Assembly (NCBI GenBank): GCA_903926465.1 | Contig: CAIYJE010000055.1 | Location: 1 to 64,000, forward strand | DNA from: an uncultured Planctomycetales bacterium | GTDB lineage: Bacteria > Planctomycetota > Planctomycetia > Isosphaerales > Isosphaeraceae | DNA length: 64,000 nucleotides | Reading direction: 5' to 3' | Shown here: positions 10,240 to 23,929 of the stretch, one piece after another | How positions within the stretch are numbered: position 1 is the first letter of the stretch | Layout: each line of letters starts with the position of its first letter | The notes under the pieces: generated by a model | Databases searched by the model: none | Seen by the model: only the letters and a program-made list of their open reading frames with translations | Told to the model about the DNA's origin: nothing | Translations under genes and position numbers: made by a program

Positions 10240-10268
10240 TTGACTCGTACGGATGGTGGCCGTACATT
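10240..10268 (+). promoter_or_regulatory. promoter and likely operator of the DUF1778 antitoxin gene
   Basis: A -35 TTGACT (10240-10245) and a -10 TACATT (10263-10268) are separated by exactly 17 bp. The spacer and -10 contain an inverted repeat, GTACGG (10247-10252) and CCGTAC (10260-10265), that overlaps the RNA polymerase site. This is the arrangement expected for autorepression by an antitoxin. Transcription from it would begin near 10275, which argues against the ATG at 10253 as the translation start. Confidence 0.55.
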
Positions 10269-10312
10269 CGCTCGATAGAGTCAAGATTCCCAAAGGAGTA
10301 CCTAGGGCATCA

Positions 10313-10582
10313 GTGAAGTCGGCGAGGTTAGAAACTCGAGTTTCCCCCGAACAAAAACAGCTGATCGAGTGTGCCGCCGCCTACACGGGGCGAACGGTTT
10401 CCGATTTTGTGCTTGATCGCGTGGAAGAAGCCGCAAAAAAGGTGATCGAACAGTACGAGCGAATCCGTCTGAATCAGGAACAGAGTCGCGTTCTGGTCGA
10501 GGCATTGCTAACGCCTGAGCAACCGAACAAGAAATTACAAAGCGCCATGGAAGCTTACCGAAACCAAGTTGAAAGTCGATGA
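10313..10582 (+). CDS. DUF1778 (TacA-like) type II antitoxin
   Basis: An 89-residue antitoxin of the DUF1778/TacA family. The N-terminal ribbon-helix-helix strand is SARLETRVSPEQKQLIECAA, followed by YTGRTVSDFVLDRVEEAAKK, the conserved core, and a C-terminal helix that normally wraps a GNAT toxin. Partners acetylate aminoacyl-tRNA and are neutralised by this protein, which also represses the operon. I start it at the GTG at 10313 (AGGG 5 bp upstream, right before the conserved strand) because the longer ATG at 10253 lies inside the inferred promoter. Its stop overlaps the toxin ATG by 4 bp. The antitoxin looks intact while its toxin does not. Confidence 0.85.
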   Translation: MKSARLETRVSPEQKQLIECAAAYTGRTVSDFVLDRVEEAAKKVIEQYERIRLNQEQSRVLVEALLTPEQPNKKLQSAMEAYRNQVESR

Positions 10583-12601: not shown

Positions 12602-13480
12602 TCAACGGCCGGCCGCTGGCCCACTCGGTCCTCGGCGAGGCGGAATGGATTCTCCACCTCCCACCGGCGGCTTCTTGGTGCCGTCGGCCTGTCGTCCTTC
12701 GCTCCCCATGCCGGTCACCGCGTAGGTGCCGCTTTTGGGGTTCCGCTCAATGTCCACCACCGCGCAGTTGTCGGCATCTTCCAGCAGGTGTCCGAATGTG
12801 CGGTAGCCATAATAGCTCTCGTCGAACGATGGCTTTTTCCGCTTCATCGTTTCCTTGATAAGCGAGGCGTGCAGGATCTCGTGGTTTTCGCGTCTGAGGG
12901 CGTTGCACGCATCAATCAGCAGGGCAAAGGCTTCACGCTTTTTCTCAGGCGCACCAGCCAGGCGGGCGTCTAAAACCGTGACAACCTGCTTCTCGTCTTC
13001 TTCCTGGCGCTCCAGGTCTTCGTAGTAAATAAACTCGTCGCAGTTGTCCCGGAGTAGCTCGGAGGTTGAGCCCTTCATTCCCAGGCCAATGACGTGCTTA
13101 CCGTTTTCCTTGAGCTTGGAGACCAGTGGAGAGAAATCACTATCGCCAGACACGATGGCAAAGGTGTCCACGTGAGACTTGGACCACGAAAGGTCCATGG
13201 CATCGACGACCAGCCGGATATCGGCCGAGTTCTTGCCAGTTTGGCTTCGCTTGGGGATCTCAATCAACTCGATCCCAGACTCATGGAACGGCGAGGTGTA
13301 GGCTGGGAACCGACTCCAGTCGGCATACGCCTTCTTGACGATAATCTTCCCTTTTTCGACCAGGCGCTCGAGCACCTTCTGAATGTCGAAGCGGGCCTTC
13401 TTCTGGTGGGTAAACCCCATGGCGAGGTTTTCCAGATCGATAAACACCGCCAGGTTTCGTTCGCGATCCGATTTGGTCAT
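12602..13480 (-). CDS. NYN-domain nuclease-like protein with LOTUS/OST-HTH domain
   Basis: A 292-residue protein. Residues about 8-150 form a NYN (PIN-like, LabA/DUF88) domain: the first acidic site is in AVFIDLENLAMG, the second in SADIRLVVDAMDLS, and the third in IVSGDSDFSPLV, with GLGMKGSTSELL after it. Residues about 180-255 look like an OST-HTH/LOTUS winged helix (EAFALLIDACNAL, then SYYGYRTFGHLLEDAD). NYN domains are metal-dependent RNases and LOTUS domains bind RNA or G-quadruplexes, so RNA processing in the cytoplasm is the likely role. The C terminus is basic and glycine/proline-rich. It lies 76 bp upstream of the lactamase-fold gene on the same strand. The target is unknown. Confidence 0.9.
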   Translation of the reverse strand: MTKSDRERNLAVFIDLENLAMGFTHQKKARFDIQKVLERLVEKGKIIVKKAYADWSRFPAYTSPFHESGIELIEIPKRSQTGKNSADIRLVVDAMDLSWSKSHVDTFAIVSGDSDFSPLVSKLKENGKHVIGLGMKGSTSELLRDNCDEFIYYEDLERQEEDEKQVVTVLDARLAGAPEKKREAFALLIDACNALRRENHEILHASLIKETMKRKKPSFDESYYGYRTFGHLLEDADNCAVVDIERNPKSGTYAVTGMGSEGRQADGTKKPPVGGGESIPPRRGPSGPAAGR

Positions 13481-13639
13481 TGCACCCAGGCTCGACCCGC
13501 TTGCGGGTGTCGGTTCGAGGTATTCAGATTAGCCAGGGACTGGCCATTCCTGATAACAAACATGCTAACCCAAGACACATGTGCCACGCGAGATCTTGGC
13601 CCAAGAGATTTTAGCCCGTCCCCCATGACACCGGTTTTC

Positions 13640-13677
13640 AAAAAAAAAGGCGAGCAACTTTGAAGTCGCTCGCCTTT
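13640..13677 (-). terminator. intrinsic terminator of the 18-residue-repeat protein gene
   Basis: On the minus strand a stem AAAGGCGAGC/GCTCGCCTTT with a 12-base loop is followed directly by eight T residues. It lies 28 bp after the stop of the repeat-protein gene, which supports the minus strand as the coding strand there. Confidence 0.9.
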
Positions 13678-13704
13678 CAGTTTGATCAGACCGTCCCGGC
13701 AAAA

Positions 13705-14517
13705 TTACTTGCTGGGAACAGGCAGAAGCTGGCTGGAAACCGCAGCCTGAGGGGCAGCGACAGCAGCGGGAGCAAACTTAGCTGGAGCCTGAGGAGCGGC
13801 AACAGCAACCGGAGCAACCTTGGAAGGAGCAGCGGTGTAGGCCTGAGGAGCGGCAACAGCAACCGGAGCAACCTTGGAAGGAGCAGCGGTGTAGGCCTGA
13901 GGAGCGGCAACAGCAACCGGAGCAACCTTGGAAGGAGCAGCGGTGTAAGCCTGAGGAGCGGCGACAGCAACCGGAGCAACCTTGGAAGGAGCAGCGGTGT
14001 AAGCCTGAGGAGCGGCGACAGCAACCGGTGCAACCTTGGAAGGAGCAGCGGTGTAATCCTGAGGAGCAGCGACGGCAACTGGGGTGCTCTTGCCAGCGGC
14101 AACCAGACCACCCTGAGGAGCAGCGACGGCAACTGGGGTGCTCTTGCCAGCGGCAACCAGACCACCCTGAGGAGCGGCGACAGCAACCGGAGCAACCTTG
14201 GAAGGAGCAGCGGTGTAAGCCTGAGGAGCGGCGACAGCAACCGGAGCAACCTTGGAAGGAGCAGCGGTGTAAGCCTGAGGAGCGGCAACAGCAACTGGGG
14301 TGCTCTTACCAGCAGCAACCAGACCACCCTGAGGAGCAGCAACGGCTACAGGAGCAGCCTTGCCAGGAGCCTGAGGAGCAGCGGCAACCCAGTTGGTGCC
14401 AGCAGCAACAGCCACTGGAGCAACTTTGCCAGGAGTCTGCAGGGACTGAGCACCAGCAGGAGCGGCCAGGAGGCCAGCAGCAACCAGGCCCAGCAGGTTG
14501 GAAGGGCGAACGATCAT
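13705..14517 (-). CDS. secreted low-complexity protein built of 18-residue repeats
   Basis: A 270-residue exported protein. Residues 1-24 are a signal peptide (LLGLVAAGLLAAPAGAQ). Residues 64-243 are ten contiguous 18-residue units ending in PVAVAAPQ, in two flavours: AYTAAPSKVAPVAVAAPQ (seven, one beginning with D) and GGLVAAGKSTPVAVAAPQ (three), in the order G-A-A-G-G-D-A-A-A-A. The composition is Ala, Pro, Val and Lys, with no Cys, so an extended cell-wall- or envelope-associated fibre is plausible. GGAGAG lies 8 bp before the ATG and a strong terminator follows. The opposite strand is also open across the array, but it has no signal peptide, ribosome site or terminator. I know no family with this unit. 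Confidence 0.8.
   Translation of the reverse strand: MIVRPSNLLGLVAAGLLAAPAGAQSLQTPGKVAPVAVAAGTNWVAAAPQAPGKAAPVAVAAPQGGLVAAGKSTPVAVAAPQAYTAAPSKVAPVAVAAPQAYTAAPSKVAPVAVAAPQGGLVAAGKSTPVAVAAPQGGLVAAGKSTPVAVAAPQDYTAAPSKVAPVAVAAPQAYTAAPSKVAPVAVAAPQAYTAAPSKVAPVAVAAPQAYTAAPSKVAPVAVAAPQAYTAAPSKVAPVAVAAPQAPAKFAPAAVAAPQAAVSSQLLPVPSK
13789..14328. repeat. ten tandem 54-bp repeats (coding)
   Basis: There are ten adjacent 54-bp units without spacers, in phase with the minus-strand codons. Neighbouring units of the same flavour are nearly identical in DNA, so copy number should vary by slippage or unequal recombination. Confidence 0.95.
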
Positions 14518-14995
14518 CGGTGGAACTCTCCGAAATTACGACGGGGTATGACTAGGTGTCCTCGACCCGATTCGAGGATTGTGTCGGCCTCCAGATCCCC
14601 GTGTGTGAGGTCTGTGCACGTCGATTATATCTCACCGTTTTGCGGGATCTAGATAAACTGCGGAAAATTCAATCGCCGTGGTGGTTTTGGGACTTTGGTG
14701 TTGATAAGTGCGATTGTAGGCTTTGTAGGAGATGCGAGTGGCGGCGGGTTGGGGGTTTGGCGGTTTTCGGAAATTTATGCCTGGAATGCCTGGAATTGCT
14801 GGGCAATTTGCTTGATCGTCAAAGTCATTAAGATCAAGATGATTGTTGCAAATGGGAACTTGCGCGGTGGGGGAGTACGGACCCCCAGACCGGACCAAAA
14901 AATTTTAGCACCGAAATGAACCGGGCGAAGTGACCGCACTGCGGTGACTGGCCGGCTGGTCTCAAGACGTTGGGTTGTCAGGGAGGGAGTCGATC
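14518..14995. other. AT-richer divergent intergenic region
   Basis: This lies between the divergently read repeat-protein and TPR genes. Its GC is lower than that of the flanks. A TATAAT on the minus strand (14629-14624) lies about 110 bp before the repeat-protein start and could be its -10, but I see no convincing -35. A short direct reiteration, 'gcctggaatgcctggaatt', lies near 14780. I found no gene here. Confidence 0.4.
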
Positions 14996-17900
14996 ATGCC
15001 CGAAGGAATCGAGCGCCACGGATACACGTGGACGTGTGGGAGGAGTCGCGGCTCTTCCACGATATACGTGGTACTGGCACTCAGCGGGCTCGTCTCTCAG
15101 GCGTTGGGTCAGGTGGCGGGCGGTCTTGGGGTCGAGCCCCCCGCAGCCGGAGCGTTGGCTCAGCGCCGGCAGGTGCCCCAGGGTCTGAACTTTGCCAACG
15201 CCCTTCTGAATGAAAGGCGTTATGAACTTGCGGTCGAGGAATTCGAGAAATTCCTACGTACCCGCCCGGTCCAGGCTGATGAGGCAGAGGCCCAGTATGG
15301 GTTGGCTCGCGCTTTGCTTTCACTGAAGAAGTATGGAGAGGCGCGAACCCATTTTGAAACCTTCCTGACACTTGCTCCCGACAGTCCACAGGCCGCCACG
15401 GCGCGGTTCAGGCTGGCAGAATCCGCCTATCTGGGACGCGATTTGCCAGAAGCCAAACGCCTGTTCGAAGATTATCTGGCCCGCCATCCGGGGCACGTTC
15501 ATCGAGACGCCGCCTGGCCCTACCTGGGGGATGTTCGGTTTGGCCTGAATGACATGGCGGGTGCCCGGGCTGCCTATGAGACCACCATTTCTGAATTTCC
15601 GAATGGTCCGCTCACGGATCGGGCCCGGTTTTTTCTGGCCAGGGTGCTGGCCGCCCAGAAAGATACCGATGCTGCGCTCGGGCAGCTTCGGGGGTTGGCC
15701 GCTCGCACCGGTTCAGAATGGGCCGACCGGGCCAAGCTTCAAATTCCGCAGGTCTTGATCGGGGCCGGCCGGTTTGAGGATGCACTCGCAGAGCTTGAGG
15801 CCCTGGAAAAATCTCAGCCGGCGTTGGCGGCCTCTGGCGAACTGATGCTCAAACGGGCGGATGCCCTGGTGGGACTGAAGCGCAGTGATGAGGCAGAGGC
15901 GGTGCTCAGAGATCTGATTGCAAAGTCTGGCGTTTCCGGGCCAGTGGCAGCGCAGGCCGGTTATACGCTCGGACAAATTGCCTGGGATAAGGACCGGTAT
16001 CCGGCCGCGCTGGCGGCCTGGGAAGCCGCCCAGGTGCGGGGTCCAAGTCCTGCGCTGGCCCCCATGCTGTTATTCCGCACCGGCGAGGCACTTTCCCGAA
16101 CTGGGCAACCGGATGCGGCCCGAGCCCGGTTTCTTCGGCTGGCCGATCAGTACGCAGGTGACGTGTGGGCCGACCAGGCCCTGGCGCAGGCCGCTCGGTT
16201 GGCGCTGGAAGCGGGAGATTCTGTGGCCGCCGGATCGGCCGCCGATCGGTTGCTGAAAGAGTATCCGCGTTCGCCACTGCGGGCCAACGCCCGCTTGATC
16301 TCCGCGCGGTCCGCTCAGCTCACTGGCAAGTCGAGCGATGCAATTACCGGCTTCCGCCAGTTACTGGCGGAAGACAAACCGAGTCCGGAAACCGCCCAGG
16401 CCGCGCTCTTCTACCTCAGCCAGGCGTACAAGGCCGCCGGTCAGTCTGACAAGGCGGCCGAGGTGCTCGCGGAAATTGCCAAGGATCCGGGGATGACCCT
16501 GGGCGGCAACGCCCGCTACGCACTTGGCCAGGGGCACTTTGAGGCAGAACGCTATGCAGAGGCCGTGGCTGCACTTGATCCGTTCGTTCAAGAGAACCCC
16601 CAAAGTTCGCTCACGCCCCATGCGCTGGCCTACCTGGTGTTGGCCCATGAGGCCCTGAAGCAACCGGCCCAGGCCCAAGCCCGGCTCGACGAACTGCAGA
16701 AAGACTGGCCTGCAAGCGAAGATTTACTCCGCGTGCGGCTTCGCCTGGGTGAAGCCGCGCTCGATTCCAAAGAGTACGACCGTGCGGTGGAATTTCTGAG
16801 CCCTGCCGCCGTCGATCGGCCTGCTCCTGAGCTAGCGTCGGCCACCGATGGCGAGCCGTGGACGGCACGCGCCCGGATTGGCCTGGGTTGGGCATTGCTC
16901 GGCCAGGAAAAGCCGGACAAGGCGGCCGAGGCGTTTGGGCGAGCGCTTGAGGCCCGGCCGGCGGCGTCGGCCGAGCTTTCCGCCGAGGCGGCGTACATGC
17001 AGGGCTTTGCGTTTGAAAAGGCGGGACAGTCCGACCGCGCCCTTGAAGCGTTTGCCAGGGCGGCGGAAACGTATCGAGAGTCGCCCCAGGGGCTCAATTC
17101 CAACCTGGCCCGGGCGCGGCTACTGGCCAAGACGGGGCGTGCCACCGAGGCGGCCGAGGCGCTGGCCTTGCTGCTCCAATCTCGGCCCGCGGGCCTGGAA
17201 GAGAAAGCGGGCGCGGCTGCACTGCTGGCCGAGCTGGCGCGGGTACAAGACGATGCCGGCCAAGCGGCCGCCGCTGAAGCCACGTACCAGAAACTTTTGA
17301 GGGAACAGCCGAACAGCCCAGAGGCGGCCGAGGCGCGAATTGCGCTGGCGGAGCAGGCGGCCAAGCAGAAGCGGTTTGCAGACGCGCGGGTGTTGCTAGA
17401 GCCAATGGTCAATCCGGGCGACCAGGTTAAAGTGGATGCCACGCTGCGAGATCGGGCCCTGTTCCGGCTGGGCCGCATGGCCCTTGAGGAAGGGAAGACC
17501 GACGAGGCCGCGTTGCAGTTCCGCCGGGTGATCGAAGCCAGCGGGCAGGGGAATTCCCGCGACCTGGCCCGGTTCTGGCACGCGGAATCCCTCTATCGAG
17601 GCGACCATCCGAGCGAAGCCGAGCCCGAGTTTGCCGAACTGGTTCGAGAACGATCCGCAGATTCCAAGGCCGAATCTTGGCGAGATACCGCGCGGCTGCG
17701 ACGGGTTCAATGCCTGGTCAGCCTGAGACGCTGGTCCGATTCGCTCAGTGAAGCCGATGCGTTCCTGGCCGACCGGCCCGATTTTCCCCAGCGTGCCGAA
17801 CTTCATATCGCACGCGGGCGAGCGCTTCAGTCTCAGGCCTTGCCGCGGTTCGAAGACGCCAGAGCCGCCTTTGCCAAAGCCATTGAACTGGCGCCTGGAA

Positions 17901-18196
17901 CCGAATCGGCCGCACGGGCACAATTCTTCACGGGGGAAGCGTTCCTCCATGAGAAGAATTACCGAGAGGCGGTGCGTGAGTTCCACCAGGTCGAGTTGCT
18001 TTACAAGTTGCCCAGGCTTCAAGCCGACGCCCTGCTAGAGGCAGGAGCCTGCTACGTGGAGCTGGGTCAAAGGGACCAGGCTGCAGAGGTCTACCGCAAA
18101 CTGGTGAACAACTTTGCAGAGCAGCCGGCAGCCATTGAGGCCCGTAAACGCCTGGATGCCATTTCTCTGGCACCCGGTTCGGCCTCACCTCGGTAA
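14996..18196 (+). CDS. large secreted TPR-repeat protein
   Basis: A protein of about 1066 residues with an N-terminal signal or anchor (TIYVVLALSGLVSQALGQVAGG). The rest is almost wholly tetratricopeptide repeats: pairs of helices with the W/L-G-Y-A-F-A-P spacing, such as 'YELAVEEFEKFLRTRP', 'YGEARTHFETFLTLAP', 'LPEAKRLFEDYLARHP' and 'DQAAEVYRKLVNNFAEQP'. The 34-residue periodicity, with TolA/YbgF/BamD-like spacing, suggests a periplasmic scaffold. The ATG at 14996 is chosen over a TTG at 14975 because GGGAG lies about 7 bp before it. It precedes the ExbB-like, TonB-like and polytopic genes on the same strand, although a repeat element lies in the 839-bp gap. TPR proteins of the CpoB/YbgF type commonly accompany Tol/Exb systems, so a shared role is inferred. 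Confidence 0.88.
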   Translation: MPEGIERHGYTWTCGRSRGSSTIYVVLALSGLVSQALGQVAGGLGVEPPAAGALAQRRQVPQGLNFANALLNERRYELAVEEFEKFLRTRPVQADEAEAQYGLARALLSLKKYGEARTHFETFLTLAPDSPQAATARFRLAESAYLGRDLPEAKRLFEDYLARHPGHVHRDAAWPYLGDVRFGLNDMAGARAAYETTISEFPNGPLTDRARFFLARVLAAQKDTDAALGQLRGLAARTGSEWADRAKLQIPQVLIGAGRFEDALAELEALEKSQPALAASGELMLKRADALVGLKRSDEAEAVLRDLIAKSGVSGPVAAQAGYTLGQIAWDKDRYPAALAAWEAAQVRGPSPALAPMLLFRTGEALSRTGQPDAARARFLRLADQYAGDVWADQALAQAARLALEAGDSVAAGSAADRLLKEYPRSPLRANARLISARSAQLTGKSSDAITGFRQLLAEDKPSPETAQAALFYLSQAYKAAGQSDKAAEVLAEIAKDPGMTLGGNARYALGQGHFEAERYAEAVAALDPFVQENPQSSLTPHALAYLVLAHEALKQPAQAQARLDELQKDWPASEDLLRVRLRLGEAALDSKEYDRAVEFLSPAAVDRPAPELASATDGEPWTARARIGLGWALLGQEKPDKAAEAFGRALEARPAASAELSAEAAYMQGFAFEKAGQSDRALEAFARAAETYRESPQGLNSNLARARLLAKTGRATEAAEALALLLQSRPAGLEEKAGAAALLAELARVQDDAGQAAAAEATYQKLLREQPNSPEAAEARIALAEQAAKQKRFADARVLLEPMVNPGDQVKVDATLRDRALFRLGRMALEEGKTDEAALQFRRVIEASGQGNSRDLARFWHAESLYRGDHPSEAEPEFAELVRERSADSKAESWRDTARLRRVQCLVSLRRWSDSLSEADAFLADRPDFPQRAELHIARGRALQSQALPRFEDARAAFAKAIELAPGTESAARAQFFTGEAFLHEKNYREAVREFHQVELLYKLPRLQADALLEAGACYVELGQRDQAAEVYRKLVNNFAEQPAAIEARKRLDAISLAPGSASPR

Positions 18197-18425
18197 GAAG
18201 CCGTTGCAAAACCGGGACTGGCTCCGACGGCTTCATGGTGCCTGTCCCGGTTTGACGAATAGATCGAGACTCTGGCCAGAATGCTGGAATTTTCTGGCGG
18301 TTCCCGGTGGTGTTCGACAGGCAGAATTGAGAAGCCTTCGCTTCAGGGTCTTGAGCTCTGAAGGCCCGATTCATGACAGCCCAGCCCAACGGGCTGGGGC
18401 ATGGGACATTCGTCCGAGTCTTCTT
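18197..18425. other. spacer after the TPR gene
   Basis: This contains a short palindrome, CAGCCC-AAC-GGGCTG (18382-18396). Its 'CAGCCCAACGG' core recurs in inverted form at about 18665-18676, flanking the MITE-like element. I see no gene or strong terminator. Confidence 0.4.
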
Positions 18426-18640
18426 TAGCGGCTCACGATGGGCTTGCACACGAAAAGATTTGCTGAGTGTCACGCCTCAGTGTCTTGATCTTCGTTCGAT
18501 GTAGGACAGCCGCCCTCGGCTGTCATCTTCGTAACGGCCCAGGAATTCAGAGACAGCCGAGGGCGGCTGTCCTACATTCGGAAAAGGAATACCAGGAAAA
18601 ACGCTCACTTAAGTGTGCAACGCAAATGTTAACCGCTATA
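18426..18640. repeat. MITE-like element, copy a, with long internal inverted repeat
   Basis: The terminal inverted repeats are related: TAGCGGCTCACGATGGGCTT (continuing GCACAC) at 18426-18451, and a right end at 18613-18640 that reads GTGTGCAA...ACCGCTATA. Inside, a perfect 24-bp inverted repeat (18501-18524 and 18552-18575) has arms that are themselves hairpins, GACAGCCG-CCCT-CGGCTGTC. The same ends and hairpin core recur at 49669-49759 and 58742-58834, and one end recurs at 42078. No transposase frame is inside. The element separates the TPR gene from the ExbB-like gene. Confidence 0.75.
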
Positions 18641-19035
18641 GCGCTGATCGAGCCTGCGACCCACCCCGTTGGGCTGGTCTATCTTGAAACGTGCTTTCAG
18701 CCCTCAAAACCAGACCGTTTCCTTGATTCGCGGAATTTGGCGGAATGTTGGCGATTCTGATCGTCTGCAAACGGCTGATTGCTGGCGGCTTGGTTGGATA
18801 TTTTGGATCTTGCGGGCTTTGTGTCCTGTGGCGGCAAGGCGGTACAGGTTCCCTGTCTTGACCGACCGGCTTGACTGTTCGGGTGCTTGAAAATGGTGGC
18901 GAGTTCCAGGCGAACCGTGGGCTTGCTAGAGCCGATTGCAAGGAAAGGACGCGGACGTCCAGAGCGAGTTTGAGCGTTAAGGGGCAAACCGAACAGGCGG
19001 TGTGGCCCCAAGATCGTCCGCGGGGAGCAGAGTTC
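18641..19035. other. gap between repeat element and ExbB-like gene
   Basis: This holds the inverted 'CCGTTGGGCTGG' echo of 18382 at about 18666-18677 and the untranslated leader of the ExbB-like gene. The plus frame is open from 18871, but that extension has no recognisable sequence and is left as non-coding. There is no other gene. Confidence 0.4.
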
Positions 19036-20037
19036 ATGGCTGGCAGTGCAACTCCGCAAAATCCACTTGCATCGGGGAAGGCTTTGGATCGGCGCATGCG
19101 GCCGACCGCCTTGCCACGGGTGAGTGCTCTGGTTGAGGCGGCCTCCTGGGCCGGCCTGATTGGGCTGGCAATTCTGGCGCGGGGAGCCGCCGGTGGAGCG
19201 GAAGTGCGTACGGTCAGGGCCGGCGCCGGTGTTGAGGCCAACCTGCTGGAATCCCTTTCGCCCCGGGTCGAGCGGCTGGGCCGGACCGTTCGCGGCTGGT
19301 ATGAGCGAACACCTCCGCTTGAACGCGTGAGCTGGGGTGGGCTGGTGGCCTGCGGAACGCTGGGGTGCCTGACACTGGCCAGCCGGCTGTGGTCGGTGCG
19401 TCGTTCCCGGGTCCTTCCCACGAGTTTTGAGACGAGGTTCCGTGCCCGGCTGGCCGATGGGACCGTGGACTGGATGCAGGCGCTGGATTATTGCGAGCTG
19501 AACCCCAGCCCTGGGGCTCGGGTGGTGCTTTCCGCCATTCGCCGGTGGGGTCGTCCCACCACTGAACTCGAACGGGCCGTGACTCTGGCCGCCCAGAACG
19601 AGGTGGCCGCCCTGCGCCGGCATACGGGTACGCTGCGACGGGTGGCGGCCCTGGCCCCGCTAATTGGGTTACTGGGCAGCCTGGCAGAGGCCAGCCGTAC
19701 ACTGGGTGGCTTGGAGCCGGGGTTGCCGCTAGGCCCGGCCATTGCAGCCGCGCTTACTCCTTTGATCTGTGCGGTTGGACTGGCGATCCTGGCCTTGCTC
19801 GCCTACGATGGCATTGCGGGACGAATCGATTCGCTGGCCATGGAACTCGATCGGATTGGGCTTGATACGGTGGAAGCGCTCGGCCTGCTGCCGGCCGCAT
19901 CCAGCAACCGAACTTCCAGCACCACTCACCGTGCGGAATCGGCATCCTCTTCCTACTCGGCCCCACTGGGGGTTCGGCCGGGGATGGCCTCGCCTGATTT
20001 CCGATTGACCCCATCAGCAAATCGGCCCCAGTCCTGA
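19036..20037 (+). CDS. ExbB/TolQ/MotA-family proton channel protein
   Basis: A 333-residue protein. After an N-terminal hydrophobic segment (about 36-55) there is a transmembrane helix near 98-116 (WGGLVACGTLGCLTLASRLW). The ExbB core follows: a cytoplasmic helical loop with RRHTGTLRRVAALAPLIGLLGSL, then PAIAAALTPLICAVGLAILAL, and a basic/acidic cytoplasmic tail. The 'APLIGLLGSLAEASRTL' block corresponds to the 'APLLGLLGTVxGMIxAF' signature of MotA_ExbB. ExbB forms a pentamer around ExbD and uses proton flow to drive TonB or Tol proteins. No ExbD is found in the window. The ATG at 19036 follows GGGGAG at about 10 bp; a longer frame from 18871 adds poor sequence. It is 68 bp upstream of the TonB-like toroid gene, most likely in one operon. 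Confidence 0.85.
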   Translation: MAGSATPQNPLASGKALDRRMRPTALPRVSALVEAASWAGLIGLAILARGAAGGAEVRTVRAGAGVEANLLESLSPRVERLGRTVRGWYERTPPLERVSWGGLVACGTLGCLTLASRLWSVRRSRVLPTSFETRFRARLADGTVDWMQALDYCELNPSPGARVVLSAIRRWGRPTTELERAVTLAAQNEVAALRRHTGTLRRVAALAPLIGLLGSLAEASRTLGGLEPGLPLGPAIAAALTPLICAVGLAILALLAYDGIAGRIDSLAMELDRIGLDTVEALGLLPAASSNRTSSTTHRAESASSSYSAPLGVRPGMASPDFRLTPSANRPQS

Positions 20038-20105
20038 GCCCAGGCGATCTCGCCGGCCCTCAGCGACTTTGCGGGATCGTTCCTGAAAGGAGTCTCAGGA
20101 ACGCC

Positions 20106-22385
20106 ATGAACGGGCTGAATCTTGAAGCATTCTTGAAGCTGCTGGGAGCCGACTCCACCTTTTGGGTGAGTGCCGGTACCATCGCCACGTTGCTGGGCTT
20201 GGGGGCGTGGGCCGTCCGTGGCCGAACCCCGATGATCAGCCGTTGCCTGGCGCTTTCGCTAGCCTCGCACGTGGGGCTGATGGTTTACGGTGGCCCTCAG
20301 GCGGCCCGCTGGCTGGTTGCAGACTCTCGATCCACTGCGCCCCTCCGGGAAGGCCCGCCCCCAGCGGTGGCCTTGTTTCAAGAGCATCAAGATTTACCAG
20401 AGCGTCGCGCCAGCGCGAGCCTGCAAGAAGCGGCCGCGCTTGATCGACCGGAATCTTCTCCAGCCGTGGATCTGGTGCCCATTCCAGAGATCGCACGTCC
20501 AGAGCCGGTGGCCGCCGAGCCGATCGACCAAGCCCCGCGCTTGCTGGCGATGCCGCTGGCCGTGGAAGCTCCAGAGCCAGTGGCCCCTGCGCCTGAAATT
20601 AGCACCGCCGACCGTGAAATTGCGACCGAGAGCACAGAAGCCCTGAGCCGCCCGCTTGAGCATGTGGATGCCATGCCCGTGGAACTGGCCGAGGCCAAAG
20701 CCGCGACCCTGGATTCGGCCCTGCCAGAGATTCAGCCGGTTGCAGGCCCCGCGCGGAGCGAAGCTGGCCCAAGCCGGACCCGCCGCACACTTGAGCCGAT
20801 GGCCGGCCCGCAAGCGGTTGTGGCCATTCCCGCCTCGGTGCCGGTGGCCCCGGTTGCTTCCCAGGAGGAGCATCCCTTGCTGGCCGAGGAACTTGCCGAT
20901 GCTTCGGACCGGCCCAAAATTGCCATGCTCGAAGTTAGCCCAGAGCCAGCCTTGCCAGAGCCAGATCTAGCCCCGCTTACCCGTGAGGCACGCGCAACCA
21001 GTGGCACGGCTGTGGCGGCCATGCTCCCCAAGCGACCGACCCTTCCTGACCGTGTCCCGCTGATGCGAGAGAACGGCCTGACGGCCGGTCCGCCTCCCTC
21101 GATCACCGGCCTGGAGTCCAGGGTTGGTGCTCGGGAGTTGCCAGACATTCCGGAAGTGTATCGATCGCGGATGGCCCCCAACCGGTCGGCCATTGCGCTG
21201 GCGGGTGGTGCCTCGGATGCCAGTGAAGAAGCCGTGGAACACGCGCTCAAGTGGCTGGCCGTGCATCAAGACCTGGATGGCCGCTGGAATGCCGGTAGCC
21301 GTCGCGATTCGGCCGCCAAGCCGATGCGGGGCGAGACCAGCTTCACGGCCCAGTGTCCACCGGGTGAGGTCTGTGAAGGGGAGTCGTATTACTACGAGGC
21401 CGATACGGCGATGACCGGCCTGGCTTTGCTGGCATTTCTGGGGGCCGGGCAAACTCATGAGACTGGCCTGCATGCGGATACGGTGGCCAAGGGGCTGAAC
21501 TTCCTGATTCGTGCCCAAAAACCGGATGGCGACCTGCGCGGCTCTAGCGTAAACGTGGGCATGTACTGTCATGCCATTGCCAGCCTGGCCTTGTGTGAAG
21601 CGTATGCCCTGACCAGCGACCAGTCTCTGCGGAGCCCTGCGGATCGCGCCTTGAAGTTTCTTTTGAATTCCCGCACGGCCGACAAGGTTGCCTGGCGGTA
21701 CAAGCCTGGCGACAAGTTTGGCGGCGACACCAGCATTCTGGGCTGGGCGGTGATGGTGATGAAGACCGCCCGCGAGGTGGATTTGCCGGTTCCTGAAGAG
21801 GCTCGGCAAGGGGCTCTGCGCTGGTTGAAGGGGGTTTCTGAAGGCCCGTCCAAGGGGTTGGCCATTTACCGGCCCGGCGAGGGGTACCCGGTGACCCCGA
21901 CAATGACGGCCGAAGCCTGGGCGTGTCGTCAGTTCCTGGGCGTGGGCGGCCCAAGCGCGGCCAGTGACGAGGCAGCCACCTACCTGTTGCAGCATGGTCC
22001 CGATCGTGACCCGCTGAATTTGTACTACTGGTATTACGCCACGCTGTCTCTGTACCAGCATGGGGGAGATTCCTGGGTGCGCTGGAATAACCGGGTCAGA
22101 GATCAACTGGTCCGCCGGCAGACGCGGGGCGGCCATGCCGATGGGAGCTGGGATCCCTCGTTGTGCAAGGATAAGCACGATGTGCTGGGAGGCCGAATTT
22201 ACACCACGGCGCTGGCCACCCTGACCCTGGAAGTCTATTACCGCTACCTCCGACTGTACGACAGCCCGTCTCAGCCCATCCCGGGCAGTGTTCAGCGCGC
22301 CCCGGGGGCCGATGCCGCGTTGCGGAGAGCTGGCGTGAAGCCGGACGACCTGCCGGAACCGAGACCCGAGCGACTGGGACGCTGA
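20106..22385 (+). CDS. TonB-like anchored protein with terpene-cyclase-type alpha/alpha toroid
   Basis: A 759-residue protein. Two N-terminal hydrophobic helices (about 18-36 and 42-62) are followed by about 300 residues rich in Pro, Glu and Ala (for example PEPVAAEPIDQAP and EPVAPAPE), like the periplasm-spanning part of TonB. From about 375 to 735 there is an alpha/alpha toroid with prenyltransferase/squalene-oxidase-type repeats: HALKWLAVHQDLDGRWN, GLNFLIRAQKPDGDL, MTAEAWACRQFLGVGG and QTRGGHADGSWD. No DxDD cyclase motif is visible, so catalysis is doubtful; complement/macroglobulin-like or binding toroids are alternatives. With an ExbB-like gene immediately upstream, I infer that it is the energised effector of that channel. 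The polytopic protein gene follows after about 160 bp. Confidence 0.85.
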   Translation: MNGLNLEAFLKLLGADSTFWVSAGTIATLLGLGAWAVRGRTPMISRCLALSLASHVGLMVYGGPQAARWLVADSRSTAPLREGPPPAVALFQEHQDLPERRASASLQEAAALDRPESSPAVDLVPIPEIARPEPVAAEPIDQAPRLLAMPLAVEAPEPVAPAPEISTADREIATESTEALSRPLEHVDAMPVELAEAKAATLDSALPEIQPVAGPARSEAGPSRTRRTLEPMAGPQAVVAIPASVPVAPVASQEEHPLLAEELADASDRPKIAMLEVSPEPALPEPDLAPLTREARATSGTAVAAMLPKRPTLPDRVPLMRENGLTAGPPPSITGLESRVGARELPDIPEVYRSRMAPNRSAIALAGGASDASEEAVEHALKWLAVHQDLDGRWNAGSRRDSAAKPMRGETSFTAQCPPGEVCEGESYYYEADTAMTGLALLAFLGAGQTHETGLHADTVAKGLNFLIRAQKPDGDLRGSSVNVGMYCHAIASLALCEAYALTSDQSLRSPADRALKFLLNSRTADKVAWRYKPGDKFGGDTSILGWAVMVMKTAREVDLPVPEEARQGALRWLKGVSEGPSKGLAIYRPGEGYPVTPTMTAEAWACRQFLGVGGPSAASDEAATYLLQHGPDRDPLNLYYWYYATLSLYQHGGDSWVRWNNRVRDQLVRRQTRGGHADGSWDPSLCKDKHDVLGGRIYTTALATLTLEVYYRYLRLYDSPSQPIPGSVQRAPGADAALRRAGVKPDDLPEPRPERLGR

Positions 22386-22546
22386 GTGGTGAGATTCTGC
22401 GGCCCGGTCTTTGATGTTCGCCGCATATGAGCGGATATCATTGGTCAGGATTCCCGGCTAGAATCAACCAATCTTATCGCCGCCCAGGTGCTGGGTCGGG
22501 ACGGACGGGGAGAAGAGCCGGCCTGTGGGTGCCGGGGAGGCAGGCC

Positions 22547-23929
22547 GTGCAGGGTGCAATGCTAGGGTTGTGGGCGCAGGCAACGACGGCTGCGCCGGGA
22601 ACCGATCCGCAGGCGATTGCCAGAATTGCCTTGCGCCGCTGGTTTTCGGGCCTGACGTTAAGCGGCCCCGAGGTGTTTACCGGCCAAATGCCCTGGTTTG
22701 CCCTGGCCGGCGGGCTGGCTGGCCTGTTGTTGCTGGCTCTGGTGATTCAGGGGCCAGGCCGTGCGCTGGCGCAGTTGTTTGACATTCCTGGCCATTTTCG
22801 GCTGATCTCGGCCGCGTTGGGTCGCTTTCGCGCCGCCAGCCGGCTGGTTGTGCTGCTGTTGCTGGTGGCCGTCACGTCTTGGACGGTGTGGGAATCTCGC
22901 CAATATTCCAATCCCCAGCGGCTGGAAGAGCTGGCCCTGTTGCTCAAGAACAAGGGGGTGTACCAGCTTGCAACCGAGCAAGGGTTGCTGGCCGCGCTCA
23001 CGCCGTTGCGCGATGTGGCCGGCCTGGGCGATACCCTGATCTTGATGATTGCGGTGTCTGTTCTGGTGTTTCGGGTCTCCGCGGAGCGCTGGGAAGAGGA
23101 CACGGTTGATGATGCGTCATGGGTGCCGGCGTGGACCACGCCGGCCTGGGTTGCCGCCTGGCTCTACGTACTTTACCGGGTCACAATTTTGATTGTGTCG
23201 CCCGATGGTTACCCGGCCTCGGCATCGACTTACCTGGAACCGGTGCTAATACCCACGTTGATGCTGATTTGTGATGGTCTGCTGCTTGCCTGGGTGCTTG
23301 GCGAACTGCGGCGATCGGAACTCGATGAACTGGCTGGTTCGCGGGTTGCCATGGCCGTTCGCTGGCTACCCGCGGCCGTGCTGGCCTGTCTGGTGGCTTT
23401 ACCTGCGCGGGTGGTGGCCGTGACGGCGTTTCTGATTCTGAATTATGCTTTGCGTTACGTTTCGGTTGGCGCTCCATCGGTTGTGCTTGGTGGGCTCATC
23501 TGGTTGTTGATGGGGTGGGGGCTTACCGTGTTTCAGGCCGGCTCGTTGATGGTTTTGCCACTGGTGGGGGCCGCCGCATATGGCCCGATCCGGGGCGGCA
23601 CCTGGTCGGTCTGGTGGCGGATGATGCGCCATGAGGGGGGGCGATTGGTGGCCATGGTGGCGTTTTGCGGGGTTGGTATCGGTATTGCGGTGGCTCTGGT
23701 TTATGCGTTGTTGTTTCAGTATCCGGTTCAGTCTTGGTTGCTGGCCGCCGCGGATAGTTACAGCCACTACGTCACGATACCGCTGGGGCTGATCTTGCTG
23801 GCCACGCTGGTCGAAATTGCGGACCGCGTGTCTCTGCCGGGCGGGGAGCTGGAAAGCCCCGTAGAGCAGGGCCCGCTGGCGGAAGTGACGCCGTTACACG
23901 CCGTGGACGCTACTGCCAACGGGGATTGA
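22547..23929 (+). CDS. polytopic membrane protein of unknown function
   Basis: A 460-residue protein with about eight hydrophobic helices (for example FALAGGLAGLLLLALVI, LVVLLLLVAVTSWTVW, AVLACLVALPARVVAVTAF and VAFCGVGIGIAVALVYALLF). A polar loop of about 60 residues follows helix 2 and the tail is acidic. I recognise no family. The start is a GTG at 22547, preceded by GGGGAGG at 6 bp; the frame extends to 22427 but without a ribosome site. It is the last gene of the TPR / ExbB-like / toroid run and may be the inner-membrane platform for them. Its last about 160 bp overlap the tail of a convergent minus-strand frame (23767-24504). Confidence 0.75.
   Translation: MQGAMLGLWAQATTAAPGTDPQAIARIALRRWFSGLTLSGPEVFTGQMPWFALAGGLAGLLLLALVIQGPGRALAQLFDIPGHFRLISAALGRFRAASRLVVLLLLVAVTSWTVWESRQYSNPQRLEELALLLKNKGVYQLATEQGLLAALTPLRDVAGLGDTLILMIAVSVLVFRVSAERWEEDTVDDASWVPAWTTPAWVAAWLYVLYRVTILIVSPDGYPASASTYLEPVLIPTLMLICDGLLLAWVLGELRRSELDELAGSRVAMAVRWLPAAVLACLVALPARVVAVTAFLILNYALRYVSVGAPSVVLGGLIWLLMGWGLTVFQAGSLMVLPLVGAAAYGPIRGGTWSVWWRMMRHEGGRLVAMVAFCGVGIGIAVALVYALLFQYPVQSWLLAAADSYSHYVTIPLGLILLATLVEIADRVSLPGGELESPVEQGPLAEVTPLHAVDATANGD

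Follow-up and report, generated by a model that had tools for sequence, protein, structure and literature searches.

A family of exported Lys/Gln-repeat proteins in the order Isosphaerales, with a partner of predicted transglutaminase fold beside sister genes: candidates for a cross-linked envelope

One gene in the window – the whole stretch of 64,000 nucleotides that was analysed, from an uncultured planctomycete of the order Isosphaerales – belongs, judging by its sequence, to a family of stand-alone, exported repeat proteins that appears specific to this order. New here are the repeat family, the rule by which its repeats combine lysine and glutamine, and a transglutaminase-fold partner encoded beside sister genes of the window gene. 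The reading preferred here is that these are dedicated Lys/Gln-repeat envelope proteins cross-linked by a transglutaminase with the fold of GP42, a proposal to which we give a little less than an even chance. No description of a planctomycete transglutaminase paired with a repeat protein was found among the titles and abstracts listed from one open-licence library.

The features of the window gene and its neighbours are listed in Table 1. The units of the array follow one another without spacers in the order GGL, AYT, AYT, GGL, GGL, DYT and then four times AYT. Seven have a TAAPSK head (one of them starting with D instead of A) and three a GGLVAAGKST head, and PVAVAAPQ is the common end of all ten. 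Both flavours retain one Lys and one Gln despite their differing heads. A second degenerate unit trails the array, besides the one that precedes it. Tandem Repeats Finder gives a period of 54, 9.4 copies and 89% matches. The first-pass annotation, made from the letters of the window, had described ten near-identical 54-bp units without spacers in two flavours with a shared PVAVAAPQ tail, together with a signal peptide, a ribosome site and a strong terminator, and all of these were found again.

Table 1. Coordinates of the window gene, its parts and its neighbours
Feature	Position	Strand	Details and basis
Type A Lys/Gln-repeat protein gene	13705..14517	-	270 aa, without internal stops; open frame, translation, relatives
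Classical signal peptide, residues 1-23, AGA end then Q	14449..14517	-	Basic n-region, hydrophobic core, AxA-like site
Probable ribosome-binding site GGAGAG	14526..14531	-	8 nt ahead of ATG; read off sequence
Ten exact 18-residue (54-bp) units, one Lys and one Gln apiece	13789..14328	-	Unit count; Tandem Repeats Finder
Degenerate unit ahead of array	14329..14382	-	Unit reading
Intrinsic terminator, 15-pair stem and T run	13645..13678	-	Folding z -4.35
NYN-domain gene, next downstream	12602..13480	-	PF01936, E 7.3e-37
TPR-repeat gene, divergent from repeat gene	14975..18196	+	TPR matches; orthologous neighbours
MotA/TolQ/ExbB-type proton channel gene, after TPR gene	18871..20037	+	PF01618, E 4e-12

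At the DNA level, 4 of the 21 pairs of TAAPSK-flavour units and 1 of the 3 pairs of GGL-flavour units are identical. Most codon differences are silent: 26 synonymous and 6 non-synonymous over the TAAPSK-flavour pairs, with all 6 coming from the single D, and 10 synonymous and 0 non-synonymous over the GGL-flavour pairs. The protein sequence is thus kept while the DNA of the array is shuffled. The assembly is in 207 contigs, which leaves the copy number in living cells uncertain. Codon usage in the gene (GCT for 78% of Ala, CCT for 65% of Pro, GTT for 78% of Val) exceeds that of ribosomal proteins in the direction in which these depart from neighbouring genes. The codon index is 0.838; eleven ribosomal-operon ORFs have 0.69-0.79, and nine ORFs of the window 0.61-0.71. 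The value fits an abundant product, but duplicated units can push such an index upwards, and it is taken as a hint of high expression. A search of positions 13400-15100 gave no sigma-70-like promoter. The protein has no transmembrane anchor beyond the signal peptide, and matched no Pfam family at E<=1 and no NCBIfam entry at E<=0.1.

A direct homology search with the window protein gave little because the units of different genera differ too much. It matched, weakly, 6 of the 45 genomes of the order, its own included, and the one match among the genome contigs searched was an unrelated low-complexity sequence of Neolewinella. (The 45 genomes, one per species, are those of the window's family, which is the whole order as sampled.) The family was reached through gene order, by way of the conserved NYN-domain neighbour, followed by a second query. 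Upstream of the NYN gene, several genera have a short exported ORF with units of 10 to 14 residues such as QAPSKVAPAP. With this NYN-adjacent repeat ORF as the query, relatives were found in 42 of the 45 genomes at E<=1e-3, and 53 to 59 repeat proteins were read out, depending on the analysis; these counts are lower bounds because the arrays break assemblies. Draft contigs that end within repeats include G009:C107, G016:C276, G017:C232, G022:C248 and G032:C87. At E<=1e-8 there were matches in 13 of 246 genomes of the phylum and 11 of 252 other genomes of the class, with 23-57% identity, low complexity and, in many, internal stops; the one with the best identity (genome G302) is a histone-like run. 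A spread of the family past the order was rejected at the search sensitivity used, the outside matches being weak and of low complexity.

The suggestion that the gene is functional, that its product is exported and that its units are still turning over gains support from the mostly synonymous unit differences, the ribosomal-protein-like codon usage and the relatives themselves, which carry other unit types in 42 of the 45 genomes. The first-pass annotation, which knew of no family with the motif, is borne out for Pfam and NCBIfam, but a family does exist and extends through the order. Its other concern, that homologues might show the gene to be a degraded part of a larger protein, is rejected: the relatives are short stand-alone ORFs made of an N-terminal signal and repeats alone. 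Some of them end in an Ala/Pro-rich tail. A C-terminal Lys acting as a wall anchor, like that of Braun's lipoprotein, was rejected because C termini vary among the relatives, and an SH3-ligand reading (PxxPxK) was dropped because the motif is not in the window units.

Units in the family are 7 to 18 and more residues long and are present in anything from a few (4) to 28 copies. Their length, sequence and number drift fast, while the pattern P-x-K-x-x-P and about one Gln per Lys persist. In 59 repeat proteins (9,481 mature residues), K makes up 8.8% and Q 7.9%, with D, E and R together about 0.5%. Exactly one Gln was present in 216 of the 318 distinct Lys-to-Lys segments of these proteins (intervals outside 6-24 residues were left out), where 1000 shuffles gave 115 as the mean and no more than 146, a comparison that is not a strict probability, as the segments share descent. 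Segments without Gln number 70 of the 318 distinct ones and 104 of 771 overall. Proline stands three residues after Lys in 313 of the 318, and a count over 53 proteins, with tails past the last Lys trimmed off, has Pro two before Lys at 753 of 774 lysines and three after at 741. The trimmed mature part of the window protein has 14 Lys and 14 Gln, with Pro at -2 in 11 of the 14 and at +3 in 13. It also contains Tyr, as do other members. In five members most units carry Cys (L211 in G011, L212 in G026, L115 in G038, L116 in G037 and L129 in G008). Units such as PPPSKQCPPISGPIC bear what we take to be a striking resemblance to the vertebrate small proline-rich proteins.

The loci were labelled type A or type B from the type of N terminus and the adjacency of an enzyme-like gene. 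All 28 type A proteins that were inspected have classical signal-peptide features. The window gene belongs to type A, and its protein has the layout of the family, with Sec signal-peptide features followed by P-x-K-x-x-P...Q repeats alone. Type B proteins start with a short hydrophobic stretch, and the first 10 residues are free of Lys and Arg in 25 of 29. This N terminus may be an unusual export signal or an anchor, and the export of type B is not certain. In the type B genes, L114:4824-5471 and those of other genomes, a His-rich, GLGHH-like stretch often comes after the hydrophobic start. One gene of each type is present in the window's genome, with type B on contig C31.

The neighbour of the type B genes encodes an exported protein, some 525 residues long, that 44 of the 45 genomes of the order have; the sole genome without it is 64% complete. 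The gene is present in none of the 252 other genomes of the class, and plasmid records gave no match. A profile search of the phylum found distant homologues in three genomes among 245 others. Four of these (L231 in G060; L232, L235 and L237 in G125) share the WxGHC and VWN motifs and have different N-terminal domains, FG-GAP repeats or a quinohemoprotein amine dehydrogenase-like domain.

At all 39 testable primary loci, the type B repeat ORF is divergent from the enzyme-like gene. These pairings comprise 36 found by script and those in G034, G015 and G019; four primary loci (G003, G012, G043, G044) were left out because their contigs end there, and G018 was taken out of the count after the tree was built. 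The sole copy in G018 is without a repeat neighbour and clusters, with support 1.0, with the extra copies of G016 and G017. Extra copies that have enough flank and no repeat neighbour are also found in G001 (L208), G027 (L207), G037 (L206) and G038 (L205). That of G017 has none within a flank of a mere 1.2 kb, and that of G016 is at a contig end. In the tree, one separate deep branch holds the extra copies of G001, G037 and G038, and another the G027 copy. No enzyme gene adjoins the window gene; in the window's genome the enzyme is encoded on another contig, C31.

A GHC motif had raised the suspicion of a transglutaminase before searches began. Among Pfam hints, PF16683 (Transglutaminase elicitor) alone recurred, with 10 of 23 enzyme-like proteins matching at E<=1. 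Full membership of this family was rejected, since the best score of 14.2 bits is below the curated cut-off of 25. A PF16683 search of the 45 genomes of the order gave none at E<=0.1, the distant homologues in G060 and G125 did not match it either, and a sequence search of solved structures returned nothing. The predicted structure of the core domain (from 51 sequences; pLDDT 88.8, pTM 0.86) has as its best match 3tw5_A, the GP42 transglutaminase, with Z 17.8, an rmsd of 3.3 over 249 of 344 residues and 17% identity. The next row has Z 6.9, and papain-like proteases make up most of the 25 rows after 3tw5, which span Z 5 to 6.9. A larger model of the enzyme has the same top match, at Z 15.6. 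Foldseek alone ranked nothing at E<=0.001 for the enzyme models, so the call of a GP42 fold rests on the second aligner. On this prediction, the enzyme-like protein has the GP42 transglutaminase fold.

A Cys, a His, an Asp and an Asn are invariant in all 23 enzyme-like proteins, and in all 51 of a set that includes four distant homologues; this set was picked by the W-GHC motif, the four distant rows were added deliberately, and the filter missed G011 and a partial sequence in G043. In the predicted model the Cys opens a helix, the Asp opens another helix and the Asn a strand. These three probably superpose on their GP42 partners, for which the aligner gives ranges only. The His precedes the Cys in all 23 proteins and also in G011, while the order in GP42 is Cys then His.

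GP42 has no known dedicated repeat substrate, and is said to have bacterial relatives in Vibrio. The type B neighbour resembles GP42 of Phytophthora sojae (PDB 3TW5; PF16683) in that it is secreted, matches nearly the whole domain and has a catalytic-type Cys at the start of a helix. It differs in its 17% identity to GP42, a score below the Pfam cut-off and the His ahead of the Cys. PMC10318531 places the His of GP42 directly after the Cys, the Asn on a strand and the Asp on another helix, and the type B neighbour keeps these last two placements.

A secreted enzyme of transglutaminase fold that adjoins a protein with regularly spaced Lys and Gln suggests that the former welds the latter, for which the repeats of trappin-2 (PMC3110255) and the Bacillus spore-coat enzyme Tgl (PMC6490927) are precedents. 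The window gene product would be a secreted, intrinsically extended envelope protein. Outside the inner membrane, the GP42-fold enzyme would link the repeat proteins through isopeptide bonds between Gln and Lys side chains, and a covalent mesh of protein would result within the cell wall or on its surface. Further bonds could come from the Cys that some members carry and from the Tyr of others, such as the window protein. The type A window protein could, less firmly, be a second substrate of the same enzyme, because of the motif, composition and genome that it shares with type B and not because of gene adjacency. Fold, pairing and composition are computed, and from them we infer both the cross-linking and its extension to type A. 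For the repeat family we regard cross-linking as about evenly balanced, and for the type A window protein as slightly less probable than that. The earlier guess of a structural exported protein, a surface fibre or wall linker, is partly supported; it is compatible with this mechanism and had missed the Lys and Gln in every unit and the transglutaminase-fold partner of the sister genes.

Short secreted or envelope repeats rich in Gln, Lys and Pro are also found in the cementoin domain of trappin-2, involucrin, cornifin/SPRR and seminal vesicle proteins. Trappin-2, a known transglutaminase substrate, has five GQDPVK motifs with Q and K in each unit, of which, according to PMC3110255, only certain Gln and Lys react and most do not. 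The Lys/Gln rhythm alone therefore proves little. Gln and Lys occur together in each repeat of trappin-2 and SPRR substrates, as they do in all ten window units. The vertebrate substrates are different in that sequence and organism are unrelated, and in that their cross-linking has been measured while that of the bacterial repeats is deduced. Extended Pro-rich low-complexity wall stretches, like those of the repeat proteins, are also known from pneumococcal PspA and from extensins. Those of PspA are parts of larger proteins, extensins are plant proteins bonded through Tyr, and neither is known to have a Lys/Gln rhythm or such an enzyme partner. The Tgl of Bacillus subtilis is of a different enzyme family, its substrates are not known as Pro-rich repeat proteins, and, unlike the proposed exported enzyme, it acts on the spore coat from within the mother cell. 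According to PMC6490927, Tgl is a bacterial transglutaminase that fixes the protein layer of the spore coat by Gln-Lys bonds, and the enzyme proposed here would likewise fix a protein layer through such bonds.

The composition of the repeat proteins is of the Ala-Pro-Lys linker kind, with a strong net positive charge and hardly any acidic residues. If they were not cross-linked, they could be extended Ala/Pro/Lys-rich spacers or polycations that bind anionic polymers in the periplasm or wall, with an enzyme-like neighbour of unrelated task. Such repeats do arise repeatedly elsewhere, as in the histone-like run of G302. Neither charge nor extension needs Gln, yet about one Gln per Lys holds across the unit types, and linkers usually belong to larger proteins. 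This explanation also gives no reason why type B should be so constantly paired with a protein of transglutaminase fold, and we consider it unlikely, if deserving of some weight. The papain-like fold is found in proteases and deamidases too, which counts against cross-linking. The enzyme-like protein might be a papain-superfamily protease or deamidase, with type B as its substrate, propeptide-like partner or inhibitor and type A as an unrelated wall protein of similar composition. The papain-like proteases in the 25 rows that follow 3tw5 are in line with this, as are the extra enzyme copies that stand without a repeat neighbour. The drop in Z from 17.8 to 6.9 favours a transglutaminase, Pro-rich repeats are poor protease sites, and 4 to 28 units with a constant rhythm of Lys and Gln are not expected of an inhibitor; we consider a protease or deamidase improbable.

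The gene neighbourhood of type A raises another explanation, in which the window gene would belong functionally to the divergent TPR-ExbB operon and supply a TonB-like, periplasm-spanning Pro/Lys-rich element with no connection to cross-linking. A divergent TPR gene, followed by ExbB-like genes, is beside type A at 13 of 29 loci, with the same pairing in other genera. The NYN gene, present in 41 of the 45 genomes, adjoins type A genes in several genera and is within 2.1 kb downstream at 9 of the 29 loci; both it and the TPR gene adjoin type A in six genomes of five genera (G000, G025, G012, G021, G037, G038). Neither is near 12 of the 29 loci (flanks are short at some), and the window protein has no TonB C-terminal domain, no Pfam match and no transmembrane anchor past the signal peptide; we consider a role in this operon very improbable. 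Counted against the preferred reading, cross-linking by the GP42-fold enzyme, are the extra enzyme copies without a repeat neighbour, the PF16683 score below the cut-off and the active-site order unlike that of GP42, and also the lack of an enzyme gene beside the window gene, the segments without Gln and the uncertain export of type B.

In its widest form, the cross-linking proposal is that evolution gave the whole order a counterpart to the cornified envelope of vertebrates, with a secreted GP42-fold transglutaminase that welds one or more dedicated, fast-evolving Lys/Gln/Pro-repeat proteins, the window gene's product among them, into a covalent outer mesh. We hold this form more tentatively, as somewhat less probable than not. 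Were it correct, an enzyme and its substrate would form a bacterial pair dedicated to a covalent protein layer of the envelope, in a group known for a long debate about its cell envelope, and would converge strikingly with the cross-linking of skin, semen clots and spore coats. Two order-specific gene families that lie outside every public family model would also gain a function, and a new self-cross-linking biomaterial would become available.

Several other features of these neighbourhoods were observed. Genes for TPR, MotA/ExbB-like, squalene-hopene-cyclase-like and Pfam-less multi-membrane-segment proteins stand in a row on the plus strand of the window at 14975-23929, and this block is partly kept with type A genes in other genera. 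In G038 (L077), the repeat gene is separated from the NYN gene by a small RRM-like RNA-binding ORF, which the window lacks at this place. The window ORF at 10253-10582 (plus strand) may encode a DUF1778-type antitoxin, and the short ORF that follows it, in the region up to 10940, resembles what we take to be a GNAT fragment, as in toxin-antitoxin pairs of the TacAT type.
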